Shown here in pieces: positions 1-14,254 of a stretch of DNA of 64,000 bases. A program made the position numbers and the translations under genes. Source of the stretch: Winogradskyella echinorum (GTDB taxonomy: Bacteria > Bacteroidota > Bacteroidia > Flavobacteriales > Flavobacteriaceae); NCBI RefSeq assembly GCF_014297365.1, contig NZ_JACOQD010000006.1:62001-126000 (forward strand), read 5' to 3'. The notes beneath the pieces were generated by a model that worked only from the letters and a program-made list of their open reading frames with translations, was not told the origin of the DNA and made no database searches. How positions within the stretch are numbered: position 1 is the first letter of the stretch; every line of letters begins with the position of its first letter.

Positions 1-1
1 T

Positions 2-649
2 AAGATCGCAGAGTATATTTACGATTTTGAAATTGAACAACCAGAATGGTTTGAAGATCATTTTAATAATGAAAATGGCAAACATAAGGGCCAAGGCATG
101 GGAAAAGGAATGGGACGAGGAAAAGGAAAACAAAATCAACAAGCACAAACTAATTTTAAAGAGTTACCTTATGGTGAACGTGGTTTAAAATATGCCTTAA
201 CAACAAAGGCTGTTTTAGGTGAAAATTTAATGGGAACCATTCAAAAAAAAGGAATTTTAGAGGCTTTAACTTTTTGTAACGAGCGTGCTTATCCTTTAAC
301 CGATAGTATGGCTGTTGTGCATAACGCTGATATTAAGCGCGTGTCGGATAAACCAAGAAATCCTAATAATAAAGCCAATGCAGAAGAGCTAGGTTACATT
401 AATACATTTAAACAGGTTGCGGCAAAGAATGAACAGGCAAGTCCAATTGTAAAAGAAATTGATGGTAAAGTAAGGGTTTATTATCCAATTACGACCAATA
501 CGATGTGTCTTCAATGCCATGGGAAGCCCAATGAGACATTACAACCTACAACTTTAGCCAAAATAAAGAGTTTATATCCTTTAGATAAAGCAATAGGTTA
601 TAATGTAAATGAAGTTAGAGGTATTTGGAATATCACTTTCGATAAATAA
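2..649 (+). CDS. c-type heme protein with DUF3365 (Tll0287-like) domain, 5' partial
   Basis: The reading frame is open to the left edge of the window, so the true start lies outside. The part before base 98 (ending in residues such as YIYDFEIEQPEWFEDHF) looks like the last helix of a class I cytochrome c. A Gly/Lys-rich linker (GKGMGRGKGK) follows at about 98-130, then a DUF3365 domain with the heme motif CLQCH encoded at 506-520. DUF3365 domains are heme-binding PAS-like sensor or electron-transfer domains of the cell envelope. I infer a two-heme envelope protein. It lies 12 bp upstream of the thioredoxin gene, so the two are probably co-transcribed. The signal peptide and first heme site cannot be seen. 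Confidence 0.8.
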   Translation, partial: KIAEYIYDFEIEQPEWFEDHFNNENGKHKGQGMGKGMGRGKGKQNQQAQTNFKELPYGERGLKYALTTKAVLGENLMGTIQKKGILEALTFCNERAYPLTDSMAVVHNADIKRVSDKPRNPNNKANAEELGYINTFKQVAAKNEQASPIVKEIDGKVRVYYPITTNTMCLQCHGKPNETLQPTTLAKIKSLYPLDKAIGYNVNEVRGIWNITFDK

Positions 650-661
650 AATAAGCAAGGA

Positions 662-958
662 ATGAGCAAATTTTCAGAAATAATAAGTAAAGATCAACCG
701 GTTTTAGTTGACTTTTTTGCAGAATGGTGTGGTCCATGTAAAATGTTGAGTCCTATTTTAAAACAAGTTAAAGATGCCTTAGGCGAAGATGTTACAATCA
801 TAAAAATTGATGTGGATAAGAATCAATCTTTAGCTTCAAAATATCAGGTTAGAGGTGTGCCAACAATGTTATTATTTAAAAACGGTAAACAGGTCTGGAG
901 ACAATCTGGAGTACTACAAAAAGATGACATTATTAATGTTATAAAATCATCGAGTTAA
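662..958 (+). CDS. trxA: thioredoxin
   Basis: The protein has 98 residues, the normal size for a single-domain thioredoxin. The redox site WCGPC has its cysteines at residues 23 and 26, and the cis-proline loop (GVPT) is present near residue 67. No signal peptide is seen, so it should act in the cytoplasm as a general disulfide reductase. It starts 12 bp after the heme-protein gene in the same direction. In this neighbourhood (peroxiredoxin, sulfide-quinone reductase-like enzyme) it may reduce peroxiredoxin or persulfides, but that is inference. The trxA symbol is by family only; the genome may hold other thioredoxins. Confidence 0.9.
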   Translation: MSKFSEIISKDQPVLVDFFAEWCGPCKMLSPILKQVKDALGEDVTIIKIDVDKNQSLASKYQVRGVPTMLLFKNGKQVWRQSGVLQKDDIINVIKSSS

Positions 959-984: not shown

Positions 985-1037
985 TTGTCAATAATGACAA
1001 ATGTCATGTTTCATAAAGTATTAAGTAGCTAATTTTA
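985..1037 (+). promoter_or_regulatory. Two overlapping dyads plus -7 element upstream of the 56-aa membrane protein gene
   Basis: TTGTCA-ATAA-TGACAA (985-1000) overlaps ATGAC-AAAT-GTCAT (994-1007), both perfect inverted repeats. The second dyad is centred at 1000.5. The -7-like element TAATTTTA starts at 1030, which is 29.5 bp after that centre, the same distance as at four other promoters in this region. The half site ATGAC matches GTAAC at three of five positions. I infer a Crp/Fnr-type class II activator site. Confidence 0.55.
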
Positions 1038-1063
1038 TACTCAGAAAAAAATAGATAAATTAT

Positions 1064-1234
1064 ATGATTAATACTTCAATAGCATTGTATAGTTGGACAA
1101 ATGGAGTTGTAATGATTGCAATTTTCGCAGTAGTCTGTATAACATTAGTAGGAATACTAATTAATTTTATGTCTAAGGGTAAAAGTAAGGATGTGTCTGA
1201 TAATATAAATGAAAAGGATAGCACAGAATACTAA
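1064..1234 (+). CDS. small single-pass membrane protein, 56 aa
   Basis: This is a complete short ORF with an ATG start and TAA stop. It encodes a short N-terminal stretch, one strongly hydrophobic segment (about residues 15-36, including VVMIAIFAVVCITLVGILI) and a charged tail rich in Lys, Asp and Glu. I do not recognise the family. It has its own dyad-plus-promoter upstream and its own intrinsic terminator downstream, which supports a real monocistronic gene. By size and position near cydAB it could be a small accessory subunit of a respiratory complex, but nothing in the sequence proves this. The N-out/C-in topology suggested by the charged tail is inference. Confidence 0.7.
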   Translation: MINTSIALYSWTNGVVMIAIFAVVCITLVGILINFMSKGKSKDVSDNINEKDSTEY

Positions 1235-1255
1235 TTAAAACTAATTATAAATTTA

Positions 1256-1293
1256 AAAAGAGGGTAGTCAACTATGGGTTATCCTCTTTTTTT
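1256..1293 (+). terminator. Intrinsic terminator after the 56-aa membrane protein gene
   Basis: AAGAGGGTA (1258-1266) pairs with TATCCTCTT (1280-1288), with one G-U pair, and is followed by a run of T. It separates the small gene from the peroxiredoxin promoter. Confidence 0.75.
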
Positions 1294-1323
1294 GTTCTAA
1301 ACCAGCATATTAGACAGTTATGA

Positions 1324-1367
1324 GTAACATAAGTTACATTGATAAATTCTATTGTAGCTTAAATTTG
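1324..1367 (+). promoter_or_regulatory. Crp/Fnr-type operator and promoter of the peroxiredoxin gene
   Basis: A perfect dyad GTAAC-ATAA-GTTAC lies at 1324-1337. A canonical Bacteroidota promoter follows: TTG at 1339-1341, 18 bp, then TAAATTTG at 1360-1367. The dyad centre (1330.5) is 29.5 bp before the -7 element, so about -41 from the expected start of transcription. That is the class II activation position for Crp/Fnr proteins. The cognate regulator is not in the window. Confidence 0.8.
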
Positions 1368-1395
1368 GTATAAATTAATCAAATACTTAAAAGTT

Positions 1396-2121
1396 ATGAA
1401 TACGACAGAAACAATAAAAGAAGAGCAAGTATTTTCAATGCCAAGAATTGGAGATAAAGCACCAGAATTTAAAGCAGTGACCACACAAGGAGAAATTAAT
1501 TATCCTTCTGACTATAAAGGTAAATGGTCAATTTTATTTAGTCACCCAGCAGATTTTACACCAGTATGTTCATCTGAGTTTATGACGTTTGCGCATTTAG
1601 AGGAAAAATTTGAAAAAGCAAACTGTAGTCTTATCGGTTTATCTATTGATGGTTTATATAGCCATATTGCATGGTTAAGAACCATTAAAGATAAAATTGA
1701 GTTTAACGGCATGAAAAACATAGAAGTAAAGTTCCCTTTAATTGAAGATATATCTATGGATGTTGCCAAAAGATATGGTATGATTCAGCCTGGTGAAAGC
1801 AAAACACAAGCCGTGAGAGCTGTCTTTTTTGTAGATCCTCATGAAACAGTAAGAGCAATTATATATTACCCTTTAAGTTTAGGTCGTAACTTTGATGAGT
1901 TATATAGAGCCCTTATTGCTATGCAAACTTCAGACAAATTTAATGTCGCAACTCCAGCAGACTGGAATCCAGGTGACGACGTTATAGTATCTCCAGCAGG
2001 ATCTTGTGGTGTAGCCGAGGAACGAATGACGTCTACCGAAGATTTAGATTGTAAAGACTGGTTTTTCTGCACTAAAAAATTAGATAAAGATTTAGTGATT
2101 AAAGAAGTTTTAAAAGCGTAA
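1396..2121 (+). CDS. peroxiredoxin, Prx6-like 2-Cys type
   Basis: The protein has 241 residues and belongs to the AhpC/TSA family. The peroxidatic site is PADFTPVC, with Cys58. Two further cysteines near the C terminus (Cys219 and Cys225, in CKDWFFC) match the resolving-cysteine region of the longer archaeal and bacterial Prx6-type enzymes. It has no signal peptide and should reduce hydrogen peroxide or organic peroxides in the cytoplasm, probably with electrons from the neighbouring thioredoxin (inference). The gene is monocistronic: a canonical promoter with a perfect operator lies upstream and a strong terminator downstream. Confidence 0.92.
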   Translation: MNTTETIKEEQVFSMPRIGDKAPEFKAVTTQGEINYPSDYKGKWSILFSHPADFTPVCSSEFMTFAHLEEKFEKANCSLIGLSIDGLYSHIAWLRTIKDKIEFNGMKNIEVKFPLIEDISMDVAKRYGMIQPGESKTQAVRAVFFVDPHETVRAIIYYPLSLGRNFDELYRALIAMQTSDKFNVATPADWNPGDDVIVSPAGSCGVAEERMTSTEDLDCKDWFFCTKKLDKDLVIKEVLKA

Positions 2122-2128
2122 GTAAATA

Positions 2129-2158
2129 AAAAAAGAGCCTCTAAAAGAGGCTTTTTTT
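2129..2158 (+). terminator. Intrinsic terminator after the peroxiredoxin gene
   Basis: AGCCTCT (2136-2142) and AGAGGCT (2146-2152) form a perfect stem with a three-base loop, followed by seven T. The cydAB operator begins at the very next base (2159). Confidence 0.9.
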
Positions 2159-2202
2159 GTGATAAAAGTTACTTAAGGATTGCAATTTGCTTCGTATTTT
2201 TG
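2159..2202 (+). promoter_or_regulatory. Degenerate Crp/Fnr-type operator and promoter of cydAB
   Basis: GTGAT-AAAA-GTTAC lies at 2159-2172; the right half is perfect and the left half matches GTAAC at three of five positions. An exact -7 element TATTTTTG starts at 2195, which is 29.5 bp after the dyad centre, as at the other sites. I infer the same regulator with lower affinity. Confidence 0.65.
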
Positions 2203-2221
2203 AATAACATAAAAAATAGAT

Positions 2222-3556
2222 ATGGAAGACATCCTATTCTATGATAGAATGCAGTTTGCATTTACTATCACATTTCACTACTTATTTCCGCAATTAACCA
2301 TGGGATTATCATTAATGATAGTCTATTTTAAATGGAAATTTCTTAGATCTAAAATTGAAAAATATAACGATGCTGCAAAATTCTGGATGAAGATTTTTGC
2401 TCTCAATTTTGCCATGGGAGTTGTAACTGGTATTCCTATGGAATTTCAATTTGGTACTAATTGGGCAAAATTTTCAGAGCTGACAGGTGGTATTATCGGT
2501 CAGACGTTGGCTATGGAAGGTATGTTTTCCTTCTTTTTAGAATCGTCCTTTTTAGGACTTTTTTTATTTGGAGAAAAGTTATTAGGGCATAAGCTTCATT
2601 TTATAACAGGATTTCTTGTATTCTTGGGGTCTTGGGCTAGTGGATACTTAATTATAGCCACACACTCGTGGATGCAATATCCCGTAGGTTATGAGGTCTT
2701 AGAAAATGGAAAATTTATACTCAATAATTTTGGAGCTCTATTTTCTAACCCTTGGTTATTACCATCGTATTTACATAATCAGGCAGCTTCTTTAGTAACG
2801 TCTTCATTTGTGGTTGCGGCTGTCGGTGCATTTTATTTGTTGAATAATAAGCACAACGAATTCGGAAAGTTATTTGTAAAAACAGGTGTTATTTTCGGAT
2901 TAATATCTAGTTTGTTAGTAGCATTTCCTACAGGAGATTGGGCTGCTAAAAATGTAGCAGAGCATCAACCTGTAACTTTTGCTGCTATGGAAGGCATTTT
3001 TGAAACTGAAGAAGGTGGCTCAGAAATAGTTCTTATTGGTCAGCCAAACATGTTAGAGAAAAAGCTAGATAACAAAATTGCAGTGCCAAATATTTTAAGT
3101 TTTCTAACGTATCAAGAGTGGGATGCACAAATAAAAGGTTTAAACGAATTTGATGAAAGTGTGCATCCAACCAATGTGCCTGGTCTATATTATTCGTACC
3201 ATATCATGGTAGGATTAGGAACCATTTTTATAGGATTAATGCTCTTAGCCGTGGTACAATTATTTAGAAAACGATTATACAAGACCAAATGGATTTTATG
3301 GTCGCTTATGTTTATGTTGCCATTTCCATATATTGCCAATACTACAGGTTGGTACACAGCAGAGTTGGGTAGACAACCTTGGTTAGTTTATAATTTATTA
3401 AGAACTGCAGATGGCGCTTCACCAACGGTTTCATCTGGTAATACTTTGTTCACCTTACTCGGTTTTATAGGTTTATATCTGCTATTAGGGTTACTATTTT
3501 TAATGTTAGCCGGAAAAATAATTAATAAAGGACCGCAACTAAATCAACAACACTAA
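2222..3556 (+). CDS. cydA: cytochrome bd ubiquinol oxidase subunit I
   Basis: The protein has 444 residues and is a multi-pass inner membrane protein. It carries the N-terminal heme b595 ligand His19 (in FHYLFPQLTMG) and the conserved GRQPW motif at residues 383-387, which belongs to the quinol-oxidising side. The Q-loop is of the short kind. With CydB it reduces oxygen to water with quinol electrons; bd oxidases have high oxygen affinity and are known to resist sulfide and nitric oxide. cydB starts two bases after the stop, so they form an operon. Its promoter carries the operator described at 2159. Confidence 0.97.
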   Translation: MEDILFYDRMQFAFTITFHYLFPQLTMGLSLMIVYFKWKFLRSKIEKYNDAAKFWMKIFALNFAMGVVTGIPMEFQFGTNWAKFSELTGGIIGQTLAMEGMFSFFLESSFLGLFLFGEKLLGHKLHFITGFLVFLGSWASGYLIIATHSWMQYPVGYEVLENGKFILNNFGALFSNPWLLPSYLHNQAASLVTSSFVVAAVGAFYLLNNKHNEFGKLFVKTGVIFGLISSLLVAFPTGDWAAKNVAEHQPVTFAAMEGIFETEEGGSEIVLIGQPNMLEKKLDNKIAVPNILSFLTYQEWDAQIKGLNEFDESVHPTNVPGLYYSYHIMVGLGTIFIGLMLLAVVQLFRKRLYKTKWILWSLMFMLPFPYIANTTGWYTAELGRQPWLVYNLLRTADGASPTVSSGNTLFTLLGFIGLYLLLGLLFLMLAGKIINKGPQLNQQH

Positions 3557-3558
3557 TT

Positions 3559-4635
3559 ATGGAATTATTTTGGTATATCGTTTTAATGACAATGTTAGCT
3601 GTCTATGTAATTTTAGATGGTTACGATTTTGGTGCAGGTATTATTCATTTATTTTTTGCTAAAGAAGAAAAAGATAAAAAAGCAATTACAAATGCTATTG
3701 GTCCTTTTTGGGATGCTAATGAAGTATGGCTCATTGCAGCAGGAGGTGTTTTGTTTTTTGCATTTCCAACACTTTATGCGTCCTCTTTTAGCGGATTTTA
3801 TTTACCATTAATTATGATTTTGTGGTTACTCATTTTTAGAGCTATCGGATTAGAACTTAGAGGTCAAATTCATAATAGAATATGGGAAATCATATGGGAT
3901 AAAGCCTTTGGTATCGCCAGCTTTTTATTAGCACTCTTTTTTGGTGTAGCCTTAGGTAATGTAGTAAGAGGTGTTAACTTAGGAAATGTTGTTAACGGAG
4001 TATCTACACAAGAAGCACATTATTTCTTCTTACCACTTTGGAATCCAACTTTTAGTCCACAAGCAGAACAATTAGGAATACTTGATTGGTTTACCGTTTT
4101 ATTAGGAATTGTTGGAGTAGTGGCTTTAACTATTCATGGTGCTAACTGGATAATTTTTAAGACAAATGCAGATATTAACGAAAAACTAAAAAGAGTAGTT
4201 TTCAATCTTAATTTTGTGTTATTAGCTTTAGTAATTGTTTCACTTTTAATATGGCATGTTATAGAACCACAACCATTTCATAATTTTTTCAAATATCCTT
4301 GGCTATGGATTTTTCCTGTTATCACATTTACAGGTTTGTTTGGCTTATTTAAAGTAAAAAGTTTTAAGCAACATGGTAAAGGCTTTCTATTTTCATCCTT
4401 GTTTTTGGGAGGTGGATTAGCATCGACAGTAGCTTCAATTTTCCCTAAAGTATTACCGTCTACCAATAGCGTTAATCCAGATTTAACACTGTATAATGTA
4501 GCTGCTCATGAATATGGATTGTCTGTTGGAGTGTACTGGTTTATTATTGCTATAATTCTAGTGATTACATATTTCACTATTCAATATCGTGTATTTAAAG
4601 GGAAAATGGACGATGTTGGTTATGGTGAGCATTAA
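3559..4635 (+). CDS. cydB: cytochrome bd ubiquinol oxidase subunit II
   Basis: The protein has 358 residues with about eight hydrophobic segments. The family motif DGYDFGAG lies at residues 20-27 and is followed by the conserved stretch with GPFWDANEVW. It pairs with CydA in the bd oxidase. The gene follows cydA with a two-base gap and is followed 16 bp later by a small membrane protein gene that may be a third operon member. The small CydX subunit is not obvious here. Confidence 0.96.
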   Translation: MELFWYIVLMTMLAVYVILDGYDFGAGIIHLFFAKEEKDKKAITNAIGPFWDANEVWLIAAGGVLFFAFPTLYASSFSGFYLPLIMILWLLIFRAIGLELRGQIHNRIWEIIWDKAFGIASFLLALFFGVALGNVVRGVNLGNVVNGVSTQEAHYFFLPLWNPTFSPQAEQLGILDWFTVLLGIVGVVALTIHGANWIIFKTNADINEKLKRVVFNLNFVLLALVIVSLLIWHVIEPQPFHNFFKYPWLWIFPVITFTGLFGLFKVKSFKQHGKGFLFSSLFLGGGLASTVASIFPKVLPSTNSVNPDLTLYNVAAHEYGLSVGVYWFIIAIILVITYFTIQYRVFKGKMDDVGYGEH

Positions 4636-4651
4636 TTAAAGCAGCAACGTT

Positions 4652-4957
4652 ATGACAGGTACTTTAATTTCTTTAATCAGTATTTTTATAGGAATTATTG
4701 CAGCAAATTTATTGGCCTATTTCAAGAAGAAATATTCTTTTGGTTTTACTGGCAACACTTTAATTGGTGTATTTGGAAGTCTCCTATTTATTAAAACTTT
4801 CGGAAGATTAGGTGTTGATCCTTGGTCTATAATGAAGAATGGCGATTTTGATGGTTTTTTACTCATGGTTAATTTATTAGTGTCTGCTATAGGAAGTACA
4901 ATTTTTATGATTCTTTTTAAAAAGATGTATTTATTAATAAATAAAGCAAGTTCATAA
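4652..4957 (+). CDS. small membrane protein of unknown function, 101 aa, downstream of cydAB
   Basis: The protein has three probable transmembrane segments (about residues 3-22, 33-50 and 68-95), a Lys-rich loop (KKKYSFG) and few charged residues otherwise. The Gly-rich pattern GFTGNTLIGVFGSLLF resembles small GlsB/YeaQ-like membrane proteins, but I cannot assign it to that family with confidence. It starts 16 bp after cydB on the same strand, so it is most likely the third gene of the cyd operon. A role in bd oxidase assembly is possible but unproven. Confidence 0.75.
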   Translation: MTGTLISLISIFIGIIAANLLAYFKKKYSFGFTGNTLIGVFGSLLFIKTFGRLGVDPWSIMKNGDFDGFLLMVNLLVSAIGSTIFMILFKKMYLLINKASS

Positions 4958-4971
4958 CACCTTCACCTTGT

Positions 4972-5015
4972 GTAACTAAAGTTACCATCGCTTTTAAGTA
5001 GTTAGACTACCTTTA
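4972..5015 (+). promoter_or_regulatory. Crp/Fnr-type operator and promoter of the SQR-like gene
   Basis: A perfect dyad GTAAC-TAAA-GTTAC lies at 4972-4985. A near-consensus -7 element TACCTTTA starts at 5008, again 29.5 bp after the dyad centre. The ATG follows at 5031. Confidence 0.78.
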
Positions 5016-5030
5016 ATTAAAATTAAAGTC

Positions 5031-6488
5031 ATGTCTAAAATTGTCATTTTAGGAGCCGGAATTTCTGGTCATGTAGCAGCATCACATTTAAGAAGAAAGT
5101 TGTCTAAAGAACATGAGGTTATTGTGGTTTCACCCAATACTAATTATCAATGGATTCCTTCAAATATTTGGGTAGGAATAGGCAGAATGAAATCAGAAAA
5201 AATTTTATTTCCATTAGCACCTTTATATAAAAAGAAGGGTATAGGTTACAAGCAGGCAAAGGCTCTTTCTTTCTATCCAGAAGGAGATAAAGATGAACAA
5301 AAACCCTATGTTTTAGCGGAATATGTTACTGGTGAAAAACAAGGACAACGAGAAAAAGTAACTTATGATTATCTTATAAATGCCACAGGTCCAAAACTTA
5401 ATTTTGAAGCTACTGAAGGATTGATTCCTGGTAAAAACAAAACGTATTCTGTTTGTACTTATACACATGCAGATCATGCTTGGGAAGGATTAAATGAGGT
5501 TATACAGCAAATGAAGGCTGGTAAGAAAGCGAAAATACTAATTGGTACAGGTCATGCAAAATCAACGTGCCAAGGTGCAGCTTTTGAGTATATCTTAAAT
5601 GTTGAACAAGAATTACGTAAGCACAATGTACGAGATATGGCTGAAGTTACATGGATTTCTAACGAATACCGACTAGGTGATTTCGGAATGGATGGTATGC
5701 TAATGAGTTATGGAAGTATGACTATGAAATCTAGCGAAATGGTTGAGATGATTTTTGAAGATCGTGATATCAAATGGATTCTTGGTGCTGGTGTTAATAA
5801 AATAGAAGATGGTATAGCGTATTACGAGAATTTGGAAGGCGAACATAAATCGGAGACATACGATTTTGCAATGCTTATTCCATCATTTTCTGGTCATGGT
5901 TTCAAGGCATACGATAAAAATGAAAACGACATAACAGAGAAATTGTTTAAAGGTTTTATGGTTGTAGATGCTGATTATACACCAAAACCATATGAGGAAT
6001 GGTCAGTAAAGGATTGGCCAGAAACGTATCAAAACCCAACATATAAAAACATTTTTGCTCCTGGTATTGCATTTGCGCCTCCTCATACGATATCTAAACC
6101 GAGGAAAAGCAAAAGCGGTACAGATATATTTCCTGCTCCTCCAAGAACAGGAATGCCTTCTGGTATTACAGCAAAATTGGTAGCAGATAACATTATAGAT
6201 TCAATTAAGAACGGTAAAGAATCGTTAAAACATAAGGGTTCTATGGGAAACATGGGCGCTGCATGTATTGCATCAGCTGGTTTTGGAATGACGTCTGGAA
6301 GCGGTGTAAGCATCACAACTTTTCCGATTGTGCCAGATTACGAAAAGTACCCAAAGACACAAGGAAGACAATTAGGTAAAACGTTTGGAGAAATAGGTTT
6401 GGCAGGTCACTGGTTAAAGCTGGCCTTACATCACGCCTTTATTTATAAAGCTAAAATGCGTCCATTTTGGTGGTTAATACCCGAATAA
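5031..6488 (+). CDS. sulfide:quinone oxidoreductase-like FAD-dependent oxidoreductase
   Basis: The protein has 485 residues. An N-terminal FAD-binding motif (GAGISGHVAA) is followed by a second nucleotide-binding region. Three cysteines, Cys142, Cys180 (in TCQGAAFE) and Cys412, are spaced like the three redox cysteines of sulfide:quinone reductases; the C-x-G-A-A-F-E context is typical. The C-terminal tail (WWLIPE, preceded by an amphipathic helix) fits membrane attachment. The known family reaction is oxidation of sulfide to polysulfide or persulfide with electrons to quinone; related flavoproteins have other roles, so substrate is inferred. Its own operator and the neighbouring bd oxidase support a sulfide or redox stress role. 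Confidence 0.82.
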   Translation: MSKIVILGAGISGHVAASHLRRKLSKEHEVIVVSPNTNYQWIPSNIWVGIGRMKSEKILFPLAPLYKKKGIGYKQAKALSFYPEGDKDEQKPYVLAEYVTGEKQGQREKVTYDYLINATGPKLNFEATEGLIPGKNKTYSVCTYTHADHAWEGLNEVIQQMKAGKKAKILIGTGHAKSTCQGAAFEYILNVEQELRKHNVRDMAEVTWISNEYRLGDFGMDGMLMSYGSMTMKSSEMVEMIFEDRDIKWILGAGVNKIEDGIAYYENLEGEHKSETYDFAMLIPSFSGHGFKAYDKNENDITEKLFKGFMVVDADYTPKPYEEWSVKDWPETYQNPTYKNIFAPGIAFAPPHTISKPRKSKSGTDIFPAPPRTGMPSGITAKLVADNIIDSIKNGKESLKHKGSMGNMGAACIASAGFGMTSGSGVSITTFPIVPDYEKYPKTQGRQLGKTFGEIGLAGHWLKLALHHAFIYKAKMRPFWWLIPE

Positions 6489-6500
6489 ACATTTAAGATT

Positions 6501-6638
6501 ATGACACAAAGAATTTCAAAATATCAAAGATTTAAAATGATGAATCCAATCATTCAGTTTTTCAAATTCATTTACTTAAGTATTAAAATAATGATTGTTG
6601 TAGCTGGAGGACACGGAGGCACTAGAAAAGTAAACTGA
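6501..6638 (+). CDS. small protein, 45 aa, downstream of the SQR-like gene
   Basis: This short ORF starts 12 bp after the SQR-like stop codon and ends just before a strong hairpin, as expected for the last gene of an operon. The protein is basic, with a central hydrophobic stretch (FFKFIYLSIKIMIVVAGG) and a C-terminal GGHGGTRK motif. I do not recognise it. It could be a small membrane-associated partner of the flavoprotein. Confidence is limited because it is short and has no recognised family. Confidence 0.5.
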   Translation: MTQRISKYQRFKMMNPIIQFFKFIYLSIKIMIVVAGGHGGTRKVN

Positions 6639-6666
6639 TGTGGTTGTCAGTTTTTGGTTGGTTTAT

Positions 6667-6700
6667 TAAAGGCATTTATAAGTAATTATAGATGCCTTTA
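6667..6700. terminator. Bidirectional hairpin between convergent genes
   Basis: TAAAGGCAT (6667-6675) pairs perfectly with ATGCCTTTA (6692-6700); pairing continues inward to a stem of about 15 pairs with a four-base loop. It lies between the rightward 45-aa gene and the leftward hydrolase gene and can serve both. Confidence 0.8.
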
Positions 6701-6718
6701 TATTTTATAATTTAATAT

Positions 6719-7717
6719 TTAATTCCCCTTAAGTCGTTTCCATAAATCGGTTAATAGTTTTTTGCCGTCGCGTCTATCTTTTTGTACTTCTTCAAATTGT
6801 ACTTTGTCATTATCATTTACAATTATTTTATATTTAAACACAAAGTTTTCAGAATTTGGCTCTAAGCTCATTAAACCAAATCTTAAATCGTTAAAATAAT
6901 AATCTTCATTAACCTTATTAATTGTATACCAGCCTTCACATGTTTTTATCATACGTAATACATCTTCATTAGTTTTTAAATCTCCTAATAAATCATGTCG
7001 TTTAGGGTATATCTCAAAACGAATTGGTTTCGTGTCAAAAAATGAATAATTCCCTAATAAATAGGCATCATTAGTTTCTATATTAGCACTCCAAAGGATT
7101 GTATTTAATGGTGAGGGCCTTGTGTCTATTTTTAGATAATTTATGTTTTGTTCTTTTAAAGCAGATTCAAATTTTGTGAAAGCCAGCCATTTTAAAAAAA
7201 ACGTAATTACCAAATAGAAAGTACTTATTAATAGGCCAAGGTTATTATATAACCTTCGTTTTTTAGTATGACGTTTATGCCGCATGGCAAGAATTAAAAA
7301 TATTAAAAATGGTAGCGTATAAAGTGGATCGATAACAAATATGGTTTTAAATGCTAGCCTAATATCAAATGGCCAGAATAACTGTGTTCCCCATGTAGTA
7401 TGAGCATCTAAGATAGGATGTGTTACAAAAGCCCAAAAGAATAAAGAGAACCAACCCTTAAAACTCTTATAGGATTCAAATCGCGAAATTATCCAACCGA
7501 ATATAACTGCAAAAAGAATAGAAAATATAATTGAATGTGTAAATCCGCGATGTATCGACAATGCAGTTACAGTATCTGTAAAATGAGAGGCTAACACATC
7601 TAAATCTGGTATTGTACCAGCAATAGCACCATAAAGCATCGCTTTATTACCAACTTTTCTCCCTAATACAGCTTCACCAACAGCTGCGCCTAATACAATT
7701 TGAGTAAGTGAATCCAT
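6719..7717 (-). CDS. membrane-bound metal-dependent hydrolase, YdjM/DUF457 family
   Basis: The protein has 332 residues. The N-terminal half carries the family's candidate metal ligands: PDLD (37-40), HRGFTHS (56-62) and HPILDAH (100-106), set between four or five transmembrane segments. The C-terminal half is a soluble domain of about 150 residues without recognised motifs. Members of this family are inner membrane proteins of uncertain substrate. The gene is divergent from the efflux operon. Its start at MDSLTQIVLG fits the family's usual N terminus. Confidence 0.85.
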   Translation of the reverse strand: MDSLTQIVLGAAVGEAVLGRKVGNKAMLYGAIAGTIPDLDVLASHFTDTVTALSIHRGFTHSIIFSILFAVIFGWIISRFESYKSFKGWFSLFFWAFVTHPILDAHTTWGTQLFWPFDIRLAFKTIFVIDPLYTLPFLIFLILAMRHKRHTKKRRLYNNLGLLISTFYLVITFFLKWLAFTKFESALKEQNINYLKIDTRPSPLNTILWSANIETNDAYLLGNYSFFDTKPIRFEIYPKRHDLLGDLKTNEDVLRMIKTCEGWYTINKVNEDYYFNDLRFGLMSLEPNSENFVFKYKIIVNDNDKVQFEEVQKDRRDGKKLLTDLWKRLKGN

Positions 7718-7784
7718 ATATAAAGCAAAAGTAAGATATACATATTAAACTTTTATAAAGTTTTAAATCATTGCGACTTGGTAA

Positions 7785-7828
7785 GTAACCTTTGTTACTA
7801 ACAAACATATAGTTAGCATCTATTTTTG
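7785..7828 (+). promoter_or_regulatory. Crp/Fnr-type operator and promoter of the efflux operon
   Basis: A perfect dyad GTAAC-CTTT-GTTAC lies at 7785-7798, and an exact -7 element TATTTTTG starts at 7821, 29.5 bp after the dyad centre. The site sits in the divergent gap to the membrane hydrolase gene; by spacing it serves the rightward TolC gene. Confidence 0.8.
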
Positions 7829-7847: not shown

Positions 7848-9155
7848 ATGAAATTACAAGTTTACATATCATTATTTCTTATTGCTAGTACTATTTCAGT
7901 AAAAGGGCAAGATCTTGTGCCAATTACAAAATCTGAAGTTTTAATTAAAGTTTCAGAAAATAATACAAGTATTAAAATTTCTGAAGAAGAATTTAAACAA
8001 GCCAAAGCAGATTTTAGACAAACCAATGCTGTGTTTTTACCAAACATTACAGCTAGTCATACAGCTATAGCGACAACTAATCCTTTAATAGCTTTTGGTT
8101 CTAAATTAAATCAGGAAATTTTAACACAAAACGATTTTAATCCTGCGCTATTAAATGACCCTTCGCAGATTGAAAACTACGCAACTAAATTCGAAATTCA
8201 ACAACCATTAATCAATTTTGATGGTATGTATCAACGTAAAGCGGCTAAATCTAAAATGGAAGCAATGTCTTTAAAGACGGAGCACACACAAGATTATTTA
8301 GCTTTTGAAGTGGAGAAAGCATACATGCAATTACAATTAGCTTATAAAGCAGTAGAAGTTTTAGAAACGGCTTTAGAAGCGGCAAATGCTAATAAAAAAT
8401 TGGCGGACAATAGATTTAAACAAGGGTATTTGCAACGTGCAGATGTGCTAAATGTTGAAGTGCGTGTTACTGAGGTAAAAAATCAATTACAATCAGCAAA
8501 AAGCAATGTGCAGAATGCCTCAAATTATTTATCATTTTTAATGAATGATGAAAGTTATGTGATTTACACTCCAACAGATGAATTAGAGATTACAACAACT
8601 ACAATTAATGATAAATCAATTTCCGAAAATCGTTCAGATATTAAAGCCATGCAATTAGCCTCTAACGCTTATGAAGCTATGAATAAAGCTGATAAAATGG
8701 CATTTCTTCCAAGATTGAATGCATTTGGTAGTTATGAGTTGTACGATGACCAAATTTTTCAAGCCGACGCTAATGGTTATTTATTTGGAGCACAATTAAG
8801 TTGGGATGTTTTTCAAGGGTCTAAACGTTTTGGAAAAGCCCAAAAGAGTAAAGCTGAATTTGAAAAATCTAAACTAGAATACAAGCAATATGTATCACAA
8901 AGTAATTTAGAATTAAACAAAGCGAAACGTGCATTTATGGATGCAGAAAATAAATTACAGTTAAACACTTTAGCCTTGGAACAATCTGAAGAATCTTTAA
9001 GAATTAGAACCAATAGATTTAAAGAAGGATTAGAAAAAACGTCTGATTTATTGATAGCTGAAACACAATATGCTCAAAAGCAATTAGAGTATTATCAAAC
9101 TATTTTTGAATACAATTACGCACAAGCTTATTTACAATTTTTAACTAAAGAATAA
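7848..9155 (+). CDS. TolC-family outer membrane efflux protein
   Basis: The protein has 435 residues. A signal peptide (residues 1-20, ending VKG before QD) is followed by two repeats of long amphipathic helices rich in Ala, Gln, Lys and Glu, the pattern of OEP/TolC channels. It should form the trimeric outer membrane exit duct for the RND pump encoded downstream. It is the first gene of the operon and carries the operator at 7785. The 44-64 bp gap to the adaptor gene contains imperfect repeats of the type AACCAAGA. Confidence 0.92.
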   Translation: MKLQVYISLFLIASTISVKGQDLVPITKSEVLIKVSENNTSIKISEEEFKQAKADFRQTNAVFLPNITASHTAIATTNPLIAFGSKLNQEILTQNDFNPALLNDPSQIENYATKFEIQQPLINFDGMYQRKAAKSKMEAMSLKTEHTQDYLAFEVEKAYMQLQLAYKAVEVLETALEAANANKKLADNRFKQGYLQRADVLNVEVRVTEVKNQLQSAKSNVQNASNYLSFLMNDESYVIYTPTDELEITTTTINDKSISENRSDIKAMQLASNAYEAMNKADKMAFLPRLNAFGSYELYDDQIFQADANGYLFGAQLSWDVFQGSKRFGKAQKSKAEFEKSKLEYKQYVSQSNLELNKAKRAFMDAENKLQLNTLALEQSEESLRIRTNRFKEGLEKTSDLLIAETQYAQKQLEYYQTIFEYNYAQAYLQFLTKE

Positions 9156-9219: not shown

Positions 9220-10299
9220 ATGAATAAAAAAATATATACCATAGTTGCATTTACTTTAACCTTGTTATTAGCGAGCTGCGGAAGTGAAGATAAAAAAGCA
9301 GTTGAAGATAATTCGCCAGCAATTGTTGTAAAAACCAGTCAGGTAGAAGCTAATACCAATAGTCCGTTTTTAGCGGTTAGTGGAAAAATTCAAGCTGCAA
9401 ATAGTGCAGATTTAAGTACCAGAATGATGGGTTATGTGAATAAAGTACACGTTAATGTTGGTGATAAAGTACGTAAAGGACAATTATTAGTGTCTATTAA
9501 TAATAGCGATTTGCAAGCCAAACGCGCACAAGTAAATGCAGGTATTACAGAAGCAACAGCTGCTTTTAATAATGCACAAAAAGATTACAATCGATTTAAG
9601 AATTTATTTGCAGAGAATAGCGCATCTCAGAAAGAAATGGATGATATGACGGCTAATTATGAAATGGCAAAAGCACGATTAGAATCTGCTAACCAAATGA
9701 AAAATGAAGTCAATGCACAATTTACATATAGTAATATTACAGCACCTTTTAACGGAATCATTACAAGTAAAAATGTAGAAGCTGGTAATATGGCAAATCC
9801 AGGCGCACCATTAATTAGTATGGAAACGCCAGGCCATTTTGAAGTAATGGCCATGGTACCAGAATCTGAAATTTCTGCGATTAAAAAAGGAACTACTGTT
9901 GACGTATTGGTGAAATCAATTAATCAAACCTTAAAAGGAAAAGTAGCCGAAGTAAGTACATCTGCCAAAAACACAGGTGGACAATATTTAGTAAAAATAG
10001 CATTAGACAAAACAGAAGCTAATATTTTATCTGGCATGTTTACAACGGTTCAATTTCCTGTAGAAAGAAAAGCAGCGACAGCAATGGTTTTAATTCCAAC
10101 AGATGCTATTATAACAAACGGACAATTATCTGGTGTATATACCGTAAGTCAAAGTAATACAGCATTATTACGTTGGTTACGTTTAGGAAGAACCTTTGGA
10201 GACCAAGTAGAAGTATTATCGGGTTTAAATGGAGATGAAGCTTATATCGTTTCTGCTGAAGGAAAACTTTATAATGGAGCTAAAATCAGTGTTCAGTAA
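9220..10299 (+). CDS. RND efflux periplasmic adaptor (membrane fusion) lipoprotein
   Basis: I chose the ATG at 9220 over an in-frame TTG at 9199, because it gives a clean lipoprotein signal peptide with the lipobox LASC (Cys20). The 359-residue product has the biotinyl-lipoyl-like half motif (GYVNKVHVNVGDKVRKGQ), a helical hairpin (about residues 90-160) and beta-barrel and membrane-proximal domains. It bridges the inner membrane pump and the TolC channel. It is anchored to the inner membrane by lipid. It is the second gene of the operon. Confidence 0.93.
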   Translation: MNKKIYTIVAFTLTLLLASCGSEDKKAVEDNSPAIVVKTSQVEANTNSPFLAVSGKIQAANSADLSTRMMGYVNKVHVNVGDKVRKGQLLVSINNSDLQAKRAQVNAGITEATAAFNNAQKDYNRFKNLFAENSASQKEMDDMTANYEMAKARLESANQMKNEVNAQFTYSNITAPFNGIITSKNVEAGNMANPGAPLISMETPGHFEVMAMVPESEISAIKKGTTVDVLVKSINQTLKGKVAEVSTSAKNTGGQYLVKIALDKTEANILSGMFTTVQFPVERKAATAMVLIPTDAIITNGQLSGVYTVSQSNTALLRWLRLGRTFGDQVEVLSGLNGDEAYIVSAEGKLYNGAKISVQ

Positions 10300-10518: not shown

Positions 10519-13500
10519 ATGAAAGAAGGAATCGCAGGTAAAATCGCCAAAGTCTTTATGCAATCGAAGCTTACAGTGCTTTTGATGATTGTATTTATGG
10601 TGGTTGGTGTATATAGTTCGTTTTTAATTCCGCGTGAAGAAGAACCACAAATCGATGTGCCAATGGCAGACATTTTTGTAGGTTATCCTGGCGCAAGTCC
10701 TACAGAAGTAGAGTCTCGAGTTATTAAGCCTTTAGAGCAATTAATCTCAAATATTAAAGGTGTAGAATATGTGTATTCTACGTCTATGAAGGAGCAAGGT
10801 ATGGTAATCGTACAGTTCTATGTAGGCGAAGATATTGAGCGTTCGTTTGTAAAGATGTACAACGAAATCAATAAACACATGGACCAAATGCCAGCTGGTG
10901 TTACGTTTCCTTTAGTGAAAACACGAGCTATTGACGATGTGCCAATGCTGGGTTTAACCTTGTGGAGTGAGAATTACGACGATTACCAACTCAACCAAAT
11001 GGCTCAAGAATTAGAAGCCGAAATTAAAAAGGTAAATGATGTTGCTATTACACATAAAATTGGTGGAAGAGACCGTCAATTACGTGTGGTTATAGATAAA
11101 GATAAACTAGCAGCGAGCGGATTAGATTTCTTGTCAGTTTCCGAAATGATTAAGGCCAACAACAGTCAATTAAGTGCTGGAAGTTTTGATAAAAGTGATA
11201 CAGAATTTTTGGTAAACACTGGGAAATTTTTAGAATCGGTTACAGATGTAGAAAATTTAGTGGTTGGTGTGCAACAGAATCAACCGATTTATTTAAAGCA
11301 AGTCGCTAAGATTATTGATGGTCCAGAAGTACCTCAAAATTATGTGAGTTTAGGTTTTGGTAAAGGAAGCGAAGCATCTGCTGAATATAAATCCGAATAT
11401 CCTGCAGTTACTATCTCTGTTGCCAAAAGAAAAGGCGCAGATGCTATGAAAATTGCAGAAGTAATCATTGATAAGGTAGACCATTTACGTACTACTTTAA
11501 TTCCAGATGATGTCCATGTAGAAATCACAAGAAATTACGGAGAAACGGCATCTCATAAAGTATCAGAATTATTATTGCACCTTATAGGCTCTATCATTGC
11601 GGTAACCATTGTTGTAATGTTAGCCATGGGTTGGCGTGGTGGTTTAGTTGTATTTCTATCAGTGCCAATTACATTTGCATTAACGCTGTTGAGTTACTAC
11701 ATGATGGATTATACGTTGAACAGAATCACCTTATTTGCTTTAGTATTTGTTACAGGTATTGTGGTCGATGATTCCATTATTATTGCTGAGAACATGCATA
11801 GGCATTTTAAAATGAAACGCTTGCCATTTAAACAAGCCGCTTTATATGCCATTAACGAAGTAGGTAACCCAACTATTTTAGCAACGTTTACGGTAATTGC
11901 TTCTGTATTACCAATGGCTTTTGTTTCTGGATTAATGGGACCATATATGGCACCTATGCCAATTGGAGCATCTATAGCCATGATTTTATCATTATTCGTA
12001 GCGTTAACCATTACACCATATTTAGGTTATATTTTCTTAAGAGAGAAGGACAAGAAAGGTGAAGAAGAAAAACCTGAAAAAGCAATAGAAGACACCCTTA
12101 TTTATAGAGTTTACAATAAGTTTGAAAGACCTCTTTTAGAAAGTAAAGGAAAACGATGGTTATTTTTATTGGGAACCTTCGCTGTATTATTAGGAACTAT
12201 GGCATTGTTTTTTACCAATTCAGTAGCTGTAAAAATGTTACCTTTTGATAATAAGAATGAATTTCAGGTGGTGATTGATATGCCAGAAGGTACAACCCTA
12301 GAAAGAACAGGTGTAGTTGCTCAAGAGATTTCTCAATATTTATCTAATAGACCAGAAGTGGTTAATTACCAAAATTATGTTGGGACGTCTGCGCCAATAA
12401 CCTTTAACGGATTGGTAAGACATTACGATTTGCGTGGCGGAAGTAATATGGCAGATATTCAAGTGAATTTATTGTCTAAAGAAGACCGTTCAGCACAAAG
12501 TCATGATATTGCTAAATTACTACGTCCAGATATTCAGAAAATAGCGGCGAAATATAATGCCAATGTGAAGTTGGTAGAAGTGCCACCAGGACCACCAGTA
12601 TTATCTACTATCGTAGCTGAAATATATGGACCTGATTACGATGAGCAAATTAGAGTAGCCAGTCACGTTCAAGATATTTTGAAAAATACAGCTGATGTGG
12701 TGGATATTGATTGGATGGTTGAAGATGACCAAACGGAATATCAATTCGATATTAATAAAGAAAAAGCGATGTTATATGGTGTGGCACCACAGCAAATAGC
12801 CTATACCATGAATATGGCTTTATCTAATAGAGCGATTACTACTTTGTATGACGAAGATGCTGTAAACCAAATTGGTTTGGTATTAGCTTTAGATGAAAAG
12901 GAGAAATCTACTATTACTGATATTTCGCAATTAAAGGTGAAATCTAAAATGGGAAATATGGTGCCAATTTCAGATTTAGTAGATATTTCTCAAAACACAG
13001 CAGCGAAAAGTATTTATCATAAAAACCAGAAACGTGTGGTCTATGTCATGGCAGATATGGCTGGAGAATTAGAAAGTCCTGCGTATGCCATTTTAGGAAT
13101 GGAAAAGAAGTTGAAAGAAATTTCACTACCACAAGGCTATGAGATTAATGAGATGTATTTAGGTCAGCCTGAATTTGAAGATGATTATACTGTAAAATGG
13201 GATGGAGAATGGCAAATTACATTAGAAGTCTTTAGAGATTTAGGTATCGCATTTTTAGGAGCCATTATCTTGATTTATATTTTAATTGTAGGTTGGTTTC
13301 AAAACTTTAAAGCACCAGTGGTAATGATGGTAGCCATTCCATTGTCATTAATTGGTATCATTTTAGGACACTGGATAATGGGAGCATTTTTTACAGCAAC
13401 TTCATTTATAGGGATGATTGCTTTAGCAGGAATCATGGTAAGAAATTCAGTATTACTTATAGACTTTATCAACTTAAGAACAGCTGAAGGTATACCATTA

Positions 13501-13713
13501 AAACAAGCAGCTATTGAAGCAGGAGCTGTGAGAACAACACCAATTTTACTAACAGCAGGAACAGTTGTTATTGGAGCATTTGTCATCTTGTTCGACCCAA
13601 TTTTCCAAGGATTAGCCATTTCATTAATGGGAGGAACCATTGTGTCCACAGTATTAACATTATTGGTTGTGCCATTAGTGTATTATATGATAGAGAAGAA
13701 GAATTTTAAATAA
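10519..13713 (+). CDS. RND efflux pump permease (AcrB/HAE1 type)
   Basis: The protein has 1064 residues, normal for the family. It shows the internal duplication of RND pumps: TM1 near residue 20, a first large periplasmic domain, TM2-6 (about 360-505) with the family signature around GIVVDDSIIIAE, a second TM7 near 550, a second periplasmic domain, and TM8-12 (about 915-1055). The N-terminal PREEEPQIDVPM stretch is typical of flavobacterial HAE1-like pumps. It expels small molecules by proton exchange together with the two genes before it. The substrate cannot be told from sequence; the linked redox genes suggest toxic or reactive compounds (inference). Confidence 0.93.
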   Translation: MKEGIAGKIAKVFMQSKLTVLLMIVFMVVGVYSSFLIPREEEPQIDVPMADIFVGYPGASPTEVESRVIKPLEQLISNIKGVEYVYSTSMKEQGMVIVQFYVGEDIERSFVKMYNEINKHMDQMPAGVTFPLVKTRAIDDVPMLGLTLWSENYDDYQLNQMAQELEAEIKKVNDVAITHKIGGRDRQLRVVIDKDKLAASGLDFLSVSEMIKANNSQLSAGSFDKSDTEFLVNTGKFLESVTDVENLVVGVQQNQPIYLKQVAKIIDGPEVPQNYVSLGFGKGSEASAEYKSEYPAVTISVAKRKGADAMKIAEVIIDKVDHLRTTLIPDDVHVEITRNYGETASHKVSELLLHLIGSIIAVTIVVMLAMGWRGGLVVFLSVPITFALTLLSYYMMDYTLNRITLFALVFVTGIVVDDSIIIAENMHRHFKMKRLPFKQAALYAINEVGNPTILATFTVIASVLPMAFVSGLMGPYMAPMPIGASIAMILSLFVALTITPYLGYIFLREKDKKGEEEKPEKAIEDTLIYRVYNKFERPLLESKGKRWLFLLGTFAVLLGTMALFFTNSVAVKMLPFDNKNEFQVVIDMPEGTTLERTGVVAQEISQYLSNRPEVVNYQNYVGTSAPITFNGLVRHYDLRGGSNMADIQVNLLSKEDRSAQSHDIAKLLRPDIQKIAAKYNANVKLVEVPPGPPVLSTIVAEIYGPDYDEQIRVASHVQDILKNTADVVDIDWMVEDDQTEYQFDINKEKAMLYGVAPQQIAYTMNMALSNRAITTLYDEDAVNQIGLVLALDEKEKSTITDISQLKVKSKMGNMVPISDLVDISQNTAAKSIYHKNQKRVVYVMADMAGELESPAYAILGMEKKLKEISLPQGYEINEMYLGQPEFEDDYTVKWDGEWQITLEVFRDLGIAFLGAIILIYILIVGWFQNFKAPVVMMVAIPLSLIGIILGHWIMGAFFTATSFIGMIALAGIMVRNSVLLIDFINLRTAEGIPLKQAAIEAGAVRTTPILLTAGTVVIGAFVILFDPIFQGLAISLMGGTIVSTVLTLLVVPLVYYMIEKKNFK

Positions 13714-14044: not shown

Positions 14045-14254
14045 ATGTTAAATACATATTTTAGAGTAATTGTGGGTTTTATGGTGCTATTAAGCGTTGT
14101 TTTAACCGTATATGTTAATCCAAATTGGATGTGGTTTACTGTATTTATTGGCTTAAATTTAATTCAGTCTGCATTTACAAAATGGTGCTTATTAGAGACA
14201 ATTTTAATGAAACTAGGAGTGAAAATAGAGGATGAAAGTTGTTCTTCTTGTTAA
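14045..14254 (+). CDS. DUF2892 (YgaP-like) small membrane protein
   Basis: The protein has 69 residues with two closely spaced transmembrane segments (about 5-24 and 29-46), then WCLLETILMKLGVK and a C-terminal CSSC. This layout matches DUF2892, the membrane part of the YgaP rhodanese, which is found often with sulfur-handling genes. It follows the PII-like gene by 50 bp in the same direction and probably ends the operon. The C-terminal Cys-x-x-Cys may bind metal or carry sulfur (inference). Confidence 0.82.
   Translation: MLNTYFRVIVGFMVLLSVVLTVYVNPNWMWFTVFIGLNLIQSAFTKWCLLETILMKLGVKIEDESCSSC

Follow-up and report, generated by a model that had tools for sequence, protein, structure and literature searches.

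Question

Which regulator acts on five promoters that share one geometry in Winogradskyella echinorum (Flavobacteriaceae), and to which signal does it respond? The promoters lie in a stretch of 64,000 nucleotides (contig NZ_JACOQD010000006.1, positions 62,001 to 126,000, forward strand), the whole of which is called the window below. Each carries an inverted repeat (dyad) at a fixed distance from its −7 element, and the original prediction assigned all five to a single undescribed Crp/Fnr-type regulon. Flavobacteria abound in the surface waters and sediments of the sea, where they encounter sulfide. Four of the five sites, which are of a GTAAC type, and a further site before a rhodanese gene just outside the window are here considered to be, with good probability, class II operators of one regulon for defence against sulfide and sulfane sulfur; its activator would be a Crp/Fnr protein encoded on contig C1.

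The sites of the window are as follows.

994..1007, + strand: dyad ATGAC-AAAT-GTCAT, −7 element TAATTTTA at 1030-1037; promoter of a small membrane protein gene; predicted Fnr-type class II site (second regulon)
1324..1337, + strand: dyad GTAAC-ATAA-GTTAC, −7 element TAAATTTG at 1360-1367; peroxiredoxin (prx) promoter
2159..2172, + strand: dyad GTGAT-AAAA-GTTAC, −7 element TATTTTTG at 2195-2202; promoter of the cytochrome bd oxidase genes cydAB
4972..4985, + strand: dyad GTAAC-TAAA-GTTAC, −7 element TACCTTTA at 5008-5015; promoter of a sulfide:quinone oxidoreductase-like (SQR) gene
7785..7798, + strand: dyad GTAAC-CTTT-GTTAC, −7 element TATTTTTG at 7821-7828; promoter of an operon for a TolC-like protein and a resistance-nodulation-division (RND) pump

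Sites, spacing and promoter geometry

At all five sites the dyad centre and the first T of TAnnTTTR are 29.5 bp apart (22-bp spacer); the equal spacing claimed originally was confirmed by re-reading. The window contains 18 RTRAY-N4-RTYAY dyads (both strands), five of which are followed by TAnnTTTR at spacer 22, while the other spacers from 0 to 80 average 0.075 each. No match at spacer 22 was found in 60 dinucleotide shuffles of the window, and the top count at any spacer was 2. The bare dyad is weaker evidence than the dyad combined with fixed spacing: with at most two mismatches, it occurs 44 times in the window for 26.6 expected. Four of the eight perfect dyads of the genome are found inside an 8.6-kb stretch (C7:61155-69798). 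One of these four, located 0.85 kb 5′ of the window before a rhodanese gene, has TAATTTTG at 29.5 bp. The remaining four perfect dyads of the genome lack TAnnTTTR at this distance on both strands.

In Flavobacterium psychrophilum (PMC9723704), mapped starts put TAnnTTTG at −12 to −5. The dyad centre is therefore predicted at −41.5, the class II position. The claim that the dyads lie near −41 with class II Crp/Fnr geometry is thus supported, and the sites at 1324, 2159, 4972 and 7785 and the rhodanese site would be operators centred at −41.5. The same distance is found elsewhere. Of the 218 oriented perfect dyads in 120 loci of relatives (own genome excluded; many of these loci come from close relatives), 81 have TAnnTTTR at spacer 22, the count at any other spacer between 0 and 79 being 2 or less. 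Around the candidate crp gene (80 named loci), RTRAY-N4-RTYAY plus TAnnTTTR peaks at spacers 22 (76) and 21 (33), and the next-highest count for spacers 5-60 is 12. After thinning to 159 sites of <75% identity, information in the spacer was still low, a −33 element was absent and +1 was A in 64%. A Crp dimer bound next to RNA polymerase may stand in for the missing upstream promoter element.

Conservation across orthologous promoters

The sites were counted in 40 SQR loci from other genomes: 20 from the same genus (20 of 23 other SQR-bearing genomes; G162, G163 and G165 left out) and 20 from other genera (20 of 23 other SQR-bearing genomes of the family; G001, G051 and G056 left out). Orthologs: at least 45% identity (40% for the small membrane protein), with 260 bp upstream. 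Sites: at least 9 of the 10 dyad letters, C being allowed as first base of the −7 element. GTRAC-type: −7 element at spacer 21-23. Some more distant relatives of cydA and prx, part of which have their own sites, are not included in the tally.

The dyad is present in many orthologous promoters. GTRAC-type sites precede 25 of 26 tolC genes (spacer 22; no ATGAY-type site), 8 of 11 prx genes (all 8 at spacer 22), 7 of 8 close cydA orthologs (spacer 21-23, three of them at 22) and 24 of 40 SQR genes (spacer 22; five with CA for TA in the −7 element). They are also found before rhodanese (5/6), tauE (5/8), PDO (5/10), cytochrome (4/10) and thioredoxin (1/7) genes, and not at the one yeeE promoter of the tally (0/1). 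Genes internal to operons have none (0/72: cydB 0/8; hyp101, the gene behind cydB, 0/6; acrA 0/24; acrB 0/20; two small genes behind acrB 0/14). Some relatives carry further sites before genes for a sulfate permease (PF00916), a DUF2202 protein or an ArsR-family regulator.

The SQR gene is patchy, being carried by 24 of 68 genomes of the genus, which suggests that the sulfide cluster is often gained or lost within the genus.

The candidate regulator

The genome has four Crp/Fnr genes. One of them, on contig C1 (L021:8453-9088), is located directly 5′ of two yeeE-type sulfur-transport genes (PF04143), tauE (PF01925) and a gene encoding a PDO-like metallo-beta-lactamase/rhodanese protein; it is the proposed activator gene. 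Its product belongs to the Crp/Fnr superfamily (PF00027, 37.6 bits; PF13545, 45.1 bits; both above cut-off), and the predicted fold of an ortholog matches the structures of CRP and NtcA (Foldseek probability 1.00, TM-score about 0.5-0.7). It scores 50.3 bits against the CRP equivalog model NF008732 (cut-off 266), far from a CRP equivalog. The closest named loci are from Winogradskyella, whose Crp proteins reach 85% identity.

In 91 of 129 Crp loci (130 examined minus L154, which has no crp), a GTRAC-type dyad lies within 330 bp after the crp stop codon, and in 85 it has a −7 element at 21-23. Among 930 control ends of open reading frames, 55 have the dyad and 19 the dyad with the −7 element; these ends may include real sites, so that the comparison is conservative. 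Forty of the Crp loci were chosen across the range of match scores.

A Crp/Fnr gene was also found next to orthologous clusters in relatives, as the original prediction had led one to look for. SQR and Crp are on one contig in 15 of 24 genera, and at most 40 kb apart in 15/15. Six named loci have crp and parts of the window's cluster in one 20-kb stretch, which holds SQR and RND genes in L088 and L095 (Algibacter) and RND genes in L090 (Jejuia), L096 (Algibacter), L105 and L106 (Hyunsoonleella); crp comes directly after the cluster in L088, L105 and L106, and almost directly in L095. In the 10 family genomes that lack a Crp match, perfect dyads are less dense than in the 110 with one (0.88 versus 1.82 per Mb, p = 0.0005).

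CRP position 181 is Val in 128 of 131 orthologs, Glu in 2 and Ile in 1. Of these 131 orthologs, 126 have the full set of three cysteines (C78, C84 and C85). In a sample of the whole phylum, the subfamily has a match in 64 of 198 Bacteroidota genomes, for which a set of 30 loci was analysed (one from the own genome). All three cysteines are present in 26/30, and 23/30 have a PDO-, YeeE-, TauE-, SQR- or rhodanese-like gene at a distance of about 1.5 kb or less. The predicted model of a Crp ortholog (mean predicted local distance difference test score, pLDDT, 86) puts the cysteines around a short helix in the beta roll, the region where CRP has its phosphate-binding loop.

The crp-yeeE-tauE-PDO operon is preceded at a short distance, in L021:506-8328, by genes for a transposase (PF01527) and a serine recombinase (PF00239), the second of which stops about 125 bp short of crp; the operon thus lies beside a possible mobile element.

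Proposed signal and mechanism

The target set matches that of bacterial regulons responding to sulfide or persulfide (SQR, PDO, sulfur transporters, cydAB), SQR and PDO being assigned by similarity only. In the proposed regulon, SQR, rhodanese and PDO would oxidise sulfur and pass it on, YeeE and TauE would transport sulfur compounds, cytochrome bd would maintain respiration under sulfide, and the peroxiredoxin and the RND pump would protect the cell. Sulfane sulfur would most likely be sensed by C78, C84 and C85, in the loop that binds the cyclic-nucleotide phosphate in CRP; a thiol switch of this kind is the likeliest signal of the C1 protein. A wider proposal, tentative although quite possible, is that this Bacteroidota subfamily of Crp/Fnr proteins has turned its cyclic-nucleotide pocket into a thiol sensor, in which C-x5-CC takes up sulfane sulfur and switches the dimer to class II activation of genes for sulfide oxidation and for respiration that withstands sulfide.

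The same regulon and regulator might answer to another signal, i.e. nitric oxide, peroxide, oxygen limitation or general thiol stress, via the three cysteines or a metal. This is unlikely, although more probable than the other alternatives. Peroxiredoxin, cytochrome bd and an efflux pump suit several stresses, and PMC1274295 assigns HcpR, DNR and NnrR to the metabolism of nitrogen oxides; most targets, however, handle sulfur (PDO-like, rhodanese, YeeE PF04143, TauE PF01925 and SQR-like proteins, with sulfate permeases in some relatives), and the own genome lacks hcp.

A second motif and other regulators

The site at 994 differs from the others. Its orthologous promoters are all ATGAY-type (7/7: 2 perfect, 5 with one mismatch) and never GTRAC-type (0/7). 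Similar sites are found at the Fnr-type genes of the own genome. An ATGAY-type site with spacer 22 (L022:7283) precedes ccoS/ccoN-like genes (named by reading) near the Fnr-like regulator of contig C4. Four ATGAC- or CTGAT-type dyads with spacer 22 (L023:2508, 2950, 4407 and 7092) accompany genes of the Usp (PF00582) and S30AE/HPF (PF02482) families near the response-regulator/Crp fusion of contig C3. ATGAY/CTGAT-type dyads at a 22-bp spacer thus appear to mark a second, Fnr-type regulon. On account of the orthologs and of these like sites, the 994 site is most likely an Fnr-type operator that shares only its geometry with the GTAAC sites, and it would be served by an Fnr-type regulator of the same geometry. 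A single five-site regulon, as originally proposed, is not supported and was rejected on site class (small membrane protein 7/7 ATGAY-type versus tolC 25/26 GTRAC-type). Two Crp/Fnr regulons with one promoter geometry and different half-sites would make a clear natural example of class II activation at a promoter as unusual as that of Bacteroidota.

A single Fnr-like sensor of oxygen or redox state (the C4 protein, whose gene neighbours encode a metal P-type ATPase and cco products, or the C3 fusion) is improbable as the regulator of all five sites, with GTAAC and ATGAC as mere variants of one motif. The common 22-bp spacer would fit, as would the hybrid sites (GTGAT..GTTAC at 2159, before cydA; ATGAT..ATCAC before the own PDO gene) and the ATGAY-type sites at 5/40 SQR promoters; cydAB is often under Fnr control. 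This reading conflicts with the split of the two classes by gene (tolC 0 ATGAY-type, small membrane protein 0 GTRAC-type) and with the sites of the regulators themselves: those of the Fnr-type genes are ATGAY/CTGAT-type, whereas the half-sites after the cysteine-bearing Crp are mostly GTAAC.

Control of the GTAAC sites by the Crp of contig C8 (L024:4073-4744; helix SRPTLNIL), whose proline at CRP position 181 recalls the Pro-181 to which the HcpR2 consensus GTAACnnnnGTTAC is tied in PMC1274295, is very improbable, and this candidate was rejected on distribution: close orthologs (at least 64% identity) are found in only 4 of the 20 SQR genomes compared (20 of 24; G001, G051, G056 and G112 left out), each of the other 16 has one or more perfect GTAAC dyads at spacer 22, and no GTAAC site with the spacer is present in the 8 kb around the C8 gene.

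Points weighing against the proposed regulon

Several observations count against the regulon under the C1 activator or against parts of it. In the own genome, Crp and SQR are on separate contigs. The dyad before yeeE departs there from the perfect form (GTAAC-TTTT-GTAAC, spacer 21), and the one before PDO (ATGAT-AATT-ATCAC) is nearer the Fnr type. Not every expected place has the motif: of the 40 SQR promoters, 11 show neither type of site and 5 are ATGAY-type, and 38 of 129 Crp loci have no GTRAC-type dyad after crp. Outside the family, a GTAAC site was found at 3 of 16 Crp loci, all with spacer 23 (1.5-kb flanks only).

Over whole genomes, the bare dyad is not enriched. The own genome has 157 dyads with at most one mismatch for 177 in the reversed control, and perfect dyads over 120 family genomes are fewer than in this control in 77, more numerous in 38 and equal in 5; because of these numbers, the genome-wide count was discarded as a weak proof. 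The smaller size of the Crp-lacking genomes may explain part of the gap in dyad density. SQR is found in 24 of 120 family genera, every one of which also has Crp; this is weak by itself because a Crp relative is present in 110/120.

Confidence in the model is lowest at the cysteine loop (pLDDT 77 for residues 71-80, 67 for residues 81-90). Val-181 was considered as the full cause of the GTAAC preference and rejected: this fails outside the family, where the Glu-bearing relatives L233, L235, L236 and L240 are also near GTAAC sites.

Genes of the window

The genes of the window, all on the + strand, are given below with their family matches.

1..649, +: cytochrome c/Tll0287-like protein, 3′ part; the gene begins 5′ of the window, behind the rhodanese gene with its own site
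662..958, +: thioredoxin (PF00085, 110 bits, cut-off 23.5)
1064..1234, +: small protein of 56 aa, judged a membrane protein by reading; neither Pfam nor NCBIfam gave a match
1396..2121, +: peroxiredoxin, 1-Cys Prx C-terminal domain (NF009668, 319.6 bits, cut-off 211; PF00578, PF10417)
2222..3556, +: cytochrome bd oxidase subunit I, cydA (PF01654, 488 bits)
3559..4635, +: cytochrome bd oxidase subunit II, cydB (PF02322, 263 bits)
4652..4957, +: 101-aa protein (hyp101) behind cydB; no family match in Pfam/NCBIfam searches
5031..6488, +: sulfide:quinone oxidoreductase-like flavoprotein (PF07992); closest among solved structures: sulfide-quinone reductases (E 2.6e-34)
6501..6638, +: 45-aa conserved small protein, C-terminal GGHGGTRKVN; no Pfam match
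7848..9155, +: TolC-like outer membrane efflux protein, first gene of the RND operon (PF02321, 150 bits)
9220..10299, +: RND adaptor protein, start codon approximate (PF16576, 80 bits; PF13437)
10519..13713, +: RND efflux permease (NF033617, 481 bits, under the cut-off of 1250)
14045..14254, +: YgaP-like transmembrane protein (PF11127, 46 bits, cut-off 25.3)

The SQR-like protein scores 55.7 bits against the NCBIfam SQR model, far below the cut-off of 525. The gene of the 45-aa GGHGGTRKVN protein is located directly behind that of SQR, and 37 of 40 related SQR loci encode a protein like it; it is possibly a small partner of SQR. Directly 5′ of the sulfur cluster (L020:5560-17063, contig C7) are two very large genes resembling those for nonribosomal peptide and polyketide synthases and a phosphopantetheinyl transferase-like gene (named by reading).

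Comparison with known systems

The Fnr-type regulators that this genome encodes beside its cbb3 oxidase genes share with the C1 protein the Crp/Fnr family and the class II spacing. They differ by ATGAY/CTGAT-type sites, E at the recognition position (by reading) and other genes (ccoS/ccoN by reading, Usp, S30AE/HPF, small membrane protein). NtcA is the best NCBIfam match of the C1 protein (TIGR03697), although with 51 bits for an equivalog cut-off of 244.95; its targets and its phylum are others. In NtcA, helix positions 180/181 are R-V and the GTA-N8-TAC site lies near −41.5, as for the regulator proposed here; the place of its 2-oxoglutarate site is presumably occupied by the cysteines in the C1 protein.

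The consensus of HcpR2, GTAACnnnnGTTAC, is linked to Pro-181 by Rodionov et al. (2005, PMC1274295); according to that paper, HcpR2 controls hcp, and in most Bacteroides hcp only. This consensus is identical to GTAAC-N4-GTTAC, HcpR2 is also a Crp/Fnr protein, and both lack the canonical Fnr cysteine motif (here by alignment reading). Instead of Pro-181 and an hcp target, the family described here has Val (rarely Glu or Ile), three other conserved cysteines and sulfur targets. No Prismane (PF03063) match was found in the own genome, the control being positive in 5/14. Membership in HcpR2 was rejected because hcp and Pro-181 are absent, though the motif is identical. The term "undescribed" used in the original prediction applies, within the reach of the searches made, to the regulator and its targets and not to the dyad; no account of flavobacterial sulfide sensing, or of this regulator, was found in the open-licence papers searched.

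Elsewhere, the same job is done by other families. BigR belongs to the ArsR family and CstR to the CsoR family. FisR is a sigma-54 activator and BigR and CstR are repressors, whereas a Crp/Fnr class II activator is proposed here. In PMC7315123, the sulfide response of Acinetobacter baumannii comprises SQR, PDO, TauE, yeeE-yedE-pdo2 and cydAB, via FisR and BigR; the FisR, BigR and CstR regulons (A. baumannii, Staphylococcus aureus) have the same job and very similar targets. Since the letters are those of HcpR2, the gene set resembles that of A. baumannii and the fold is known, only the combination is new. This combination offers a candidate regulator, a precise operator at a fixed promoter position, a list of targets and candidate sensor residues. 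Sulfide defence, entrusted to unrelated regulators elsewhere, would here be given to a Crp/Fnr-type protein; if the wider proposal is true, a thiol-sensing subfamily would be the Crp/Fnr answer to the job of FisR, CstR and BigR/SqrR.

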